NCBI RefSeq assembly: GCF_018449605.1
Contig: NZ_JAAVUW010000001.1
Location: 62,001-126,000 of the forward strand
Direction of reading: 5' to 3'
Source: Luteibacter sp. dw_328
GTDB lineage: Bacteria > Pseudomonadota > Gammaproteobacteria > Xanthomonadales > Rhodanobacteraceae
DNA length: 64,000 nt
Shown piece by piece: positions 9,903 to 12,284 of the stretch. The stretch's first letter is position 1, and the number at the start of each line of letters is the position of its first letter. Made by a program: the position numbers and the translations under genes. Below the pieces are notes generated by a model. It was not told the origin of the DNA. It did not search any database and saw only the letters and a list, made by a program, of their open reading frames with translations.

Positions 9903-12284
9903 ATGTCTAAAGTTTCGCCCCTGGTTGCCCGCGCTGCACTCCTTCGGGAAGGCATCGAGGAAGCAAATTACCAGTACTACGTTCTGGATGACCCCCATAT
10001 TCCTGATTCGGAGTACGACCAGTTGGTGCGTGAACTTTGGAAGCTTGAGGACGAGAACCCCGAGCTCATTACGCCGGATTCTCCCTCATTGCGTGTTGGG
10101 CCTAGGGCCCTGGGCGGTTTTCCCCCTGTCACCCATGAAGTTCCGATGCTGTCGCTTTCGAACGCTTTCGAGCAGGCAGGAGAATCGGATCGCCAGAGAT
10201 TCAAAGAAGTAGCGGACTTTGAAAAGAGGATTGAGCAAGAGCTTCGTCGAGATAATCCAGTCTTTTCCGTGGAGCCGAAGCTCGACGGACTTGCCATTAG
10301 TCTCCGCTATGAGTTCGGCGTTTTTGTGAAAGGTGCGACCCGCGGGAACGGGGAAGTCGGGGAAGACGTGACCGAGAACCTCAGGATGGTCAGGCCAGTG
10401 CCAAAACGGTTGCGGGGGGATGACTGGCCTGACGTACTTGAGGTCCGAGGTGAGATCATAATGAGGCGGCATGCGTTCGATCGATTTAACCAGTACGCAT
10501 TGAGTCACGGCCTAAAGACCCTCGCTAACCCGCGAAATGGTGCCGCTGGATCCCTGAGGCAGCACGACCCTGCAGTCACGAAGAAGCGCGACCTCTCGTT
10601 CTACGCGTATTCCGTTGGCGCGTTCCACAATGGCATCCTTCCGTCGAGTCACTCAAAGACGCTGATGCAATTGCGAAAATGGGGCTTTCCGATCTCGCCG
10701 GAAGTTTCCACGGCGACTGGCTTCGAAGGTCTCATTGCGTACTTTCGCAAGATCGGCGAGAAGCGTGACAGGCTGCCCTACGATATTGATGGCGTTGTTT
10801 ACAAGCTAGACGACTTTGAAGGCCAAATGGTTATGGGCTTCGTTTCGCGAGCCCCGCGTTGGGCGATCGCGCACAAGTTCCCTGCGCAAGAGCAAATGAC
10901 CACGGTCGAGGCGATCGAGATCCAAATCGGGCGCACCGGCGCGGCGACCCCTGTTGCACGTCTTAAACCAGTGCAGGTTGGCGGCGTGATCGTAACCAAC
11001 GCAACTCTGCACAATGCCGATCAAGTCGCGCGTTTGGACGTGCGTGTCGGCGATACAGTAATTGTACGTCGCGCGGGTGATGTAATTCCCGAGGTTGCGC
11101 GTGTCGTAGAAGACCTCCGTCCGGAAAGAACGGTGCCGTGGCATATGCCGATCCACTGCCCGGTGTGCGATTCAGAACTGTTGCGTGAAGAAGGCGAAGC
11201 GGCTTACCGATGCTCCGGCGGCTTGATCTGCGCGGCGCAACGCAAGGAGGCGCTCATCCACTTCGCCTCGCGCCGCGCCATGGACATCGACGGCCTCGGC
11301 GATCGTTTCGTCGATGCCCTCGTCGAGTTCGACATGGTGCATACGCCGGCCGACCTCTATGCGCTCACCGTCGACCGCTTCGTGAAGCTGAAGACGCTGG
11401 CGGACGAGCGCGACGGCTCCACGCCGGAGACGGTGAAGCAGGGCAAGGTCGCCACGAAGTGGGCGGAGAACCTGGTGGAGGCGATCGACGCCAGCAAGAA
11501 GTCCACGCTGCCGCGCTTCCTGTTCGGCCTTGGCATCATGCATATCGGCGAGAGCACCGCGAAGACGCTGGCCTTGTGGCTGGGCTCGCTGGACTTCGTG
11601 CGGCGCACGCCGGCGCCGGTGTTGCGCGTGCTGCCGGATATCGGCGATGAAGTAGCGACGTCCATTGCGGCGTTCTTCGAGCAGGAGGGCAACCAGAAGG
11701 TCGTCGACGCCTTGCTCGAAGCGGGTATCACCTTTGCCGATGAAGGCGCGCCTTCGCCCAAGCTGCGTGAGCGGCTAGGGCTTGACGTGCTGCTCGATGC
11801 CGCCAAGGTGTCGAAGCTCGGCCCGAAGAGCACTGGCATCCTCGCGAAGAACTACGCGAGCCTCGACGCGCTGGTGAAAGCGGGCGAGCACCAGTGGATC
11901 GTCGCCGGCGTGCCACAGGCAGCCGCCTCGAACCTCACCGCCTTGTTGGCCGACGCCGAACGCGTCGCCGAACTGCGACGCGCCGACGAAGCCATGCGCT
12001 CGCTGGCCGCGGCGCTGCCAGCGAAAGCCGCCAGCGCGCTGCCGCTGGAAGGGCTGACCTACGTCATCACCGGTACGATGGAGACGCTCAAGCGCGACGA
12101 CGCGACCGAGCGGCTCGAGTCGCTCGGCGCGAAGGTGGCGGGCTCGGTGTCGAAGAAGACCACCGGCGTTTTTGCCGGCGAAGCGGCAGGCTCGAAGCTG
12201 GACAAAGCCAATGAGCTCGGCGTGCCGGTGTATACGGAAGCGGACCTGCTGGCCCTGCTGACCGAACACGGTGTGGCGCCATGA
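9903..12284 (+). CDS. ligA: NAD-dependent DNA ligase LigA (compositionally chimeric gene)
   Basis: LigA seals nicks in replication and repair. The 793-residue product has the Ia/adenylation domain with the active-site KLDG (Lys126), an OB fold ([15 protein letters not shown]), a four-Cys zinc finger (CPVC ... CSGGLIC, about residues 419-443), HhH repeats and a C-terminal BRCT domain (about 712-790). It is longer than E. coli LigA (671), with extra sequence in the HhH region as in xanthomonads. Bases 9903 to about 11,200 use relaxed codons: in a 41-codon sample at 10,200, 21 codons end in G/C. The rest is strongly GC-biased: 36 of 41 codons at 11,281. The break falls in the zinc finger. The stop overlaps epmA by four bases. 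No motif is missing, so the hybrid should be functional. Confidence 0.97.

Follow-up and report, generated by a model that had tools for sequence, protein, structure and literature searches.

Introduction

The gene ligA normally encodes the essential replication ligase of bacteria. Intragenic recombination is well known from other genes, among them the mosaic penA and pbp genes. The summary of one study describes relatives of aph(3')-IIa as mosaic genes formed by intragenic homologous recombination (PMC4437187), and the summary of another, on E. coli and Shigella, describes the lateral transfer of gene fragments within species (PMC3212841). The ligA gene of a 64-kb stretch of Luteibacter DNA (the window, by which we mean the whole stretch analysed) resembles such mosaic genes in that one part of it appears to have been replaced by the homologous part of another lineage, while the reading frame remained full-length and the flanks native. 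It differs from the mosaic aph, penA and pbp genes in being normally an essential replication ligase gene, in a DNA divergence of about 32%, in offering no evident drug-resistance advantage and in having an unsampled donor. As with the E. coli and Shigella fragments, so far as their summary describes them, the transferred unit does not coincide with a gene; the ligA fragment, however, differs from its new genus as much as other genera do.

None of the titles found in the literature searched describes a half-replaced ligA. Since mosaic genes and fragment transfer are already known, we regard the case as moderately interesting, set apart by the gene concerned, its divergence and the missing donor. 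Ordinary LigA proteins of the genus (database protein P0121 and those of the genomes G006 and G010) share domain order, zinc-finger cysteines, C-terminal half and locus with the window LigA, which differs from them in an N-terminal half 73-74% identical, a low GC3 and Asn149.

The ligA gene and its locus

The gene is the sole ligA of an assembly that is 99.95% complete and 0.1% contaminated; a search of it for a second LigA found none. Its reading frame is open and full length, and seven Pfam families, each above its own cut-off (Nlig-Ia barely so, at 29.7 versus 27 bits), make up a complete set of Ia, adenylation, OB, C4 zinc finger, HhH and BRCT regions. The protein keeps Lys126 of the KLDG motif, which we take to be the active-site lysine, together with Glu184, Arg211, Arg219, Asp296, Lys301, Lys325 and the four cysteines of the zinc finger (Cys419/422 and Cys437/443), presumably in catalytic and zinc-binding roles. 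Two of the columns that are at least 97% conserved among 258 aligned sequences deviate: position 62, a Ser common to 5 other aligned sequences, and position 149 (approximately E. coli Asp138, counted along the alignment to 2owo), which is Asn here and Asp in 257 of 257 others. Judged by whole-protein scores, Asn149 leaves membership of the LigA family not in doubt. Tyr26, at the position of E. coli His23, which we assume to have an active-site role, was ruled out as a broken active-site residue, Tyr being found in 40 of the 257 others as well. At its N-terminus the protein is shorter by three residues than P0121 and P0122, and 12 other database proteins have this same length. The initial annotation had spoken of a functional chimera. 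The LigA domains and the checked residues are indeed present, and a working NAD+-dependent ligase is the likely product, as predicted from these features.

Two further genes of the same genome carry ATP-dependent DNA ligase domains (L112 and L113; C3 and C21). Matches of this kind number two in 19 of the 23 genomes of the genus and one in 4 of the 23; because two are usual, a new back-up ligase was rejected as an explanation of the N-terminal half.

The locus is laid out as follows, in window coordinates.

8330..9805, minus strand: native left flank, an MFS transporter gene that adjoins ligA in relatives; its protein is 95% identical to those of G010 and G006
9806..9902, plus strand: MFS-ligA intergenic (promoter) gap of 97 nt, putatively part of the imported tract; changepoint at 9,822
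9903..11210, plus strand: 5' part of ligA, putatively imported, with Ia, NTase, OB and the first Cys pair; from GC3, identity and Pfam
10347..10349, plus strand: Asn149 codon; Asp in all other aligned LigAs
11111..11225, no strand: right junction, range of estimates from GC3 and third-position mismatch
11211..12284, plus strand: 3' part of ligA, native, with the second Cys pair, HhH region and BRCT; GC3 0.87, 96% to G010 and G006
12281..13231, plus strand: epmA-like gene, native right flank; protein identity 88% to G010 and 95% to G006, same order

The nine same-genus stretches spanning the locus (L078-L085, L088) share the gene order seen around ligA here, except that two lack an NhaP gene and that extra sequence occurs in places. 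The MFS gene adjoins ligA in 21 of 21 loci examined, and MFS-ligA-epmA is the usual order of the genus. The absence of smc-zipA neighbours, which had been taken as telling, is thus uninformative and was rejected as a sign of rearrangement.

Some irregularities were seen elsewhere. In the window, lpxK (4088-5089) has a GC3 of 0.67 versus 0.80-0.87 in its neighbours, its protein identity to G010 and G006 still being 92-93%. The ligA of G009 (L088 9351-11709), a single-contig genome, falls into three pieces in shifted frames (residues 7-66, 61-691 and 690-793), and its two frameshifts are possibly sequencing errors. That of G014 is split over two contigs (L089 and L090; residues 7-220 and 218-793), one of them 3,110 bases long.

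A GC3 step inside ligA

Codon usage changes abruptly within the gene. Counted over 40 codons at a time, GC3 is 0.50-0.75 for starts from 9,903 to 11,163 and 0.75-1.00 from 11,223 on. The best changepoint lies after residue 436 (nt 11,210; 2-lnL interval 11,198-11,225) and separates rates of 0.61 and 0.87. Its likelihood gain is 35.1; shuffling the order of the codons 500 times never gave more than 8.8. This bears out the initial annotation, which had described relaxed codons on the 5' side, GC-biased codons on the 3' side and an abrupt switch between the two Cys pairs of the zinc finger; within error, residue 436 does lie between Cys419/422 and Cys437/443. The gap at 9806-9902 is AT-rich, as had also been proposed, with a GC content of 0.49 versus 0.56-0.63 in five relatives.

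The GC3 of residues 8-429 minus that of residues 442-793 is -0.253. In 49 other aligned LigA genes the same difference averages -0.008 (sd 0.029), and because its minimum there is only -0.060, the codon shift is not common to the sampled relatives, none of the 49 having it. Only two of the 47 mechanical stop-to-stop frames in the window have a larger GC3 step than ligA, which comes third. Both of them (16,898-18,880 and 25,057-26,310) take in sequence ahead of the gene and have their step near the gene start.

The two halves of LigA have different kin

Protein identity of the C-half (residues 441-793) is 0.958 to G010 and 0.963 to G006; that of the N-half (residues 7-430) is 0.74 and 0.73, with nucleotide identities of 0.68 and 0.67. 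Across 29 relatives N-half identity spans 0.69-0.76, and its mean within the own genus is 0.744 versus 0.738 for 16 genomes of 13 other genera. The deficit of the N-half relative to the C-half is 0.21-0.23 to the two nearest relatives, and among 406 native gene pairs it never exceeds 0.024. Fourfold-degenerate sites follow the same pattern (identity to G010 and G006 is 0.36 for the N-half, as opposed to 0.63-0.66 for the C-half). Of 239 N-half positions at which all 29 relatives agree, 13 are changed, Asp149 included. In the protein database the C-half comes closest to P0121 (97%), a protein whose N-half is ordinary, being 95% identical to that of G006 and 74% to that of the window.

Separate protein phylogenies of the halves differ accordingly. 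The C-half is sister to G006 (support 100/84) with an end branch of 0.012. The N-half forms a long orphan branch (0.69) that leaves a fork without resolution among other genera, outside the Luteibacter rows. Residues that separate Luteibacter from other genera were used as markers: at a 70% threshold the N-half has 4 that are genus-like, 8 other-like and 2 neither, and the C-half 16, 0 and 0; at 80% the counts are 3, 6 and 2 versus 10, 0 and 0. At codon positions 1+2 (80% threshold) the N-half has 9 genus-like, 10 other-like and 3 neither. The corresponding genus-like and other-like counts are 21-22 and 0-1 for G010 and G006, and 15 and 8 for the basal G016.

Along the 64-kb window, 500-base blocks mostly match G010 and G006 at 80-97%, and those of the ligA N-half match at 67-76% or not at all. 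Other clear drops, where one or both genomes match weakly or not at all, occur at about 23,501-25,000, 26,501-27,000, 52,501-55,000 and 57,501-61,500; these blocks are probably accessory or fast-changing genes.

Edges of the divergent tract

The left junction has its changepoint at 9,822 (interval 9,805-9,826), within the gap ahead of ligA. The right junction was placed at 11,198-11,225 by GC3 and, by third-position mismatch, at 11,111-11,159 against G006 and 11,126-11,222 against G013, with wider intervals against G010 and G012. Amino-acid changepoints against four relatives (nt 10,670-10,847) were not preferred as right junction, since conservation of the OB fold extends to all relatives and since both GC3 and third positions put the change later.

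The tract is uneven inside. Third positions hint at further breaks within the N-half, at 10,508-10,685 against G010 and 10,964-11,129 against G006. Relative to the distance between Luteibacter and other genera, divergence is 1.31 in Ia, 1.59 and 1.46 in NTase and 1.09 in OB, and the rows closest to the tract belong mainly to other genera as far as residue 247 and mainly to Luteibacter over residues 248-427. Given this uneven divergence and change of nearest rows, a tract of several parts, with more than one donor or breakpoint, is possible. An uneven tract would be equally expected from one donor with a fast NTase domain and from several donors.

The length of the gap between MFS and ligA is relevant to the left edge. 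It measures 97 nt in the window, 43 nt in both G010 and G006, and 78-114 nt in 17 other same-genus genomes; the 43-nt gap common to G010 and G006 represents a deletion in the promoter region ahead of ligA. Four flanking genes give the tree (G010,(window,G006)) with support 98/99, and an AU test gives p 0.024 against grouping G010 and G006 without the window. The C-half tree was already known when the window-G006 grouping was put to the test. For orn and folP, raw identity between G006 and G010 slightly exceeds that between the window and G006. The evidence that the flanking genes place the window genome inside a trio with G010 and G006 thus appears good but not overwhelming. If this grouping is right, the long gap came with the tract, since the 43-nt form is absent from a genome that lies inside the trio. 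When the gap was aligned, it scored best with Luteibacter gaps (29.0, G021) and -12.0 with g4, although three gaps from within the genus (G016, G011 and G020) likewise fail to score above 0.

Import versus evolution in place

Divergence of this kind might be explained without import, the 5' half having evolved very fast in place through selection or relaxed constraint accompanied by an AT-ward drift of its codons. Tree tests leave room for such a history. AU tests that make the N-half sister of G010 and G006 give p 0.203 for proteins and 0.37 for codon positions 1+2, one that places it inside the genus gives p 0.291, and the tree of codon positions 1+2 sets the N-half among Luteibacter rows (95/87). 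By themselves the AU tests are compatible with fast evolution in place, and the position of the N-half branch appears unsure. The 13 changed positions that are otherwise invariant, Asp149 among them, and the failure of the protein-database search to find a donor (best 76% among the matches listed) point the same way.

Simulations, which used one protein model for all sites, speak against it. When evolution in place was simulated with the N-half next to G010 and G006, none of 400 runs reached the observed values of three statistics, nor did any of 200 runs of an uncalibrated version. A simulated placement near g4, as in the free tree, fitted poorly. A fit was obtained at three points on the stem that carries Luteibacter plus g11, with the observed values at the 8th-86th percentile. 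In addition, synonymous and protein sites both diverge, within a tract bounded at either end, and to account for the long promoter gap this genome would have to have lost the same 43-nt form. Finally, protein identity in the tract (0.74/0.73) exceeds nucleotide identity (0.68/0.67), so purifying selection must have persisted. Taken with this evidence, an origin in place is improbable.

Import is favoured instead by definable edges on both sides, by native flanks and gene order, by the differing kin of the halves, by the marker residues and by a synonymous divergence that is far higher inside the tract than outside it. As far as the tests go, the intragenic replacement in this core gene is real.

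The putative donor

We searched for sequences closer to the tract in several collections. In a protein database of 5.8 billion proteins the best identity was 76% (best 120 of 7,998 candidates scored), and among the family genomes, 226 of 233 of which had a match, the best other than the own genome was again 76%. A scan of genome contigs with exact peptide patterns, which tell little on nearer relatives, yielded 27 loci at 57% at best. Plasmids gave 219 matched records, all below 60% identity; phages gave 1,237, of which 1,236 were below 60% and one at 60-80%; viral contigs gave none with a single query and 17 loci at 34-52% with an alignment query. Consequently, no donor more than 76% identical to the tract was found among the protein-database matches listed, the family genomes, contigs, plasmids, phages or viral contigs.

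P0002, second by score at 62% identity, was rejected as donor, part of its NTase/OB region being present twice; this 819-aa metagenomic LigA lies on a contig of 4,093 bases and is probably an assembly chimera. LigA records labelled Bacillus sp. NP157 (P0088), Rothia nasimurium (P0139) and Xanthomonas sp. NCPPB 2632 (P0149) rank among the Luteibacter matches and look mislabelled.

A phage, plasmid or viral donor was rejected, the relatives found there being distant. A broader version holds that the donor was a mobile or paralogous LigA with its seat on a phage, plasmid or island. After branching near the base of Luteibacter and evolving rapidly, this copy would have entered the chromosomal gene by recombination. 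The long branch, the low GC3, the want of a close match and the very occurrence of LigA in phage and plasmid records would suit such a source. All of the plasmid matches and all but one of the phage matches, however, fall below 60%, the viral contigs reach 34-52%, and the putatively imported gap is similar to the MFS-ligA gaps of Luteibacter, scoring best with that of G021; this similarity points to a chromosomal allele of the same locus. We therefore consider a mobile donor unlikely.

Within the best 120 of 7,998 candidates the chimeric ligA is present in one genome only, as would be the case if contaminant sequence had been joined into the contig during assembly. An error of this sort is very improbable, because the contaminant would have had to be joined at two homologous points of a 1.07-Mb contig without loss of the frame, and because no displaced native N-half was found anywhere in the assembly.

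Our best guess is that the donor belonged to an unsampled lineage near the base of Luteibacter, with ligA at the same locus and AT-shifted codons. Judging from the similar gap, it probably had the same gene order.

A probable mosaic ligA

Overall, we consider it very probable that ligA is a mosaic generated by homologous (homeologous) recombination, in which a tract of about 1.3-1.4 kb was replaced by the corresponding stretch of a diverged relative. Starting in the MFS-ligA gap and ending in the zinc finger of ligA, this tract would have been exchanged, in the present Luteibacter lineage, for the matching stretch of a relative with lower GC3. Donor DNA may have been taken up by transformation or transduction and then integrated by RecA, and the chimeric product would have stayed a working NAD+-dependent ligase. 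Allelic replacement by homologous recombination after DNA uptake fits the kept gene order, the edges on both sides and the unchanged C-half.

The initial annotation had proposed a chimera whose 5' half, adenylation and OB regions included, came from another lineage. This is supported by halves that differ in nearest kin, flanks that are native and edges that can be defined. Both conditions that the annotation had named as refuting came out in favour of a chimera: none of the 49 other aligned genes has the codon shift, and the protein trees of the two halves disagree. Its description of the donor as foreign holds with regard to import, whereas the donor itself fits a lineage near the base of Luteibacter and not a remote one. 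The donor is thus nearer in kin, yet more orphan in sequence, than had been implied.

A variant of the mosaic explanation adds selection. The N-half would stem from a LigA lineage, unsampled and evolving fast, in which selection had driven the divergence of the NAD+-binding and adenylation domains, and the swap would have given the recipient an altered catalytic module. This reading arises because excess change is 1.3-1.6-fold in Ia and NTase versus 1.09-fold in OB, and because Asp149 was lost; we hold it to be unlikely. If true, the altered module could serve, for example, in escape from a ligase-targeting phage factor or inhibitor.

If recombination is indeed the right explanation, it brings to light a LigA lineage to which the searches gave no match closer than 76%, and which has Asn where 257 of 257 other sequences carry Asp. 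It would also mean that a core, normally essential replication gene can have its catalytic half swapped for one about 32% divergent in DNA, the remainder of the gene and the locus staying native, and it would break the assumption that such core genes have a single history.
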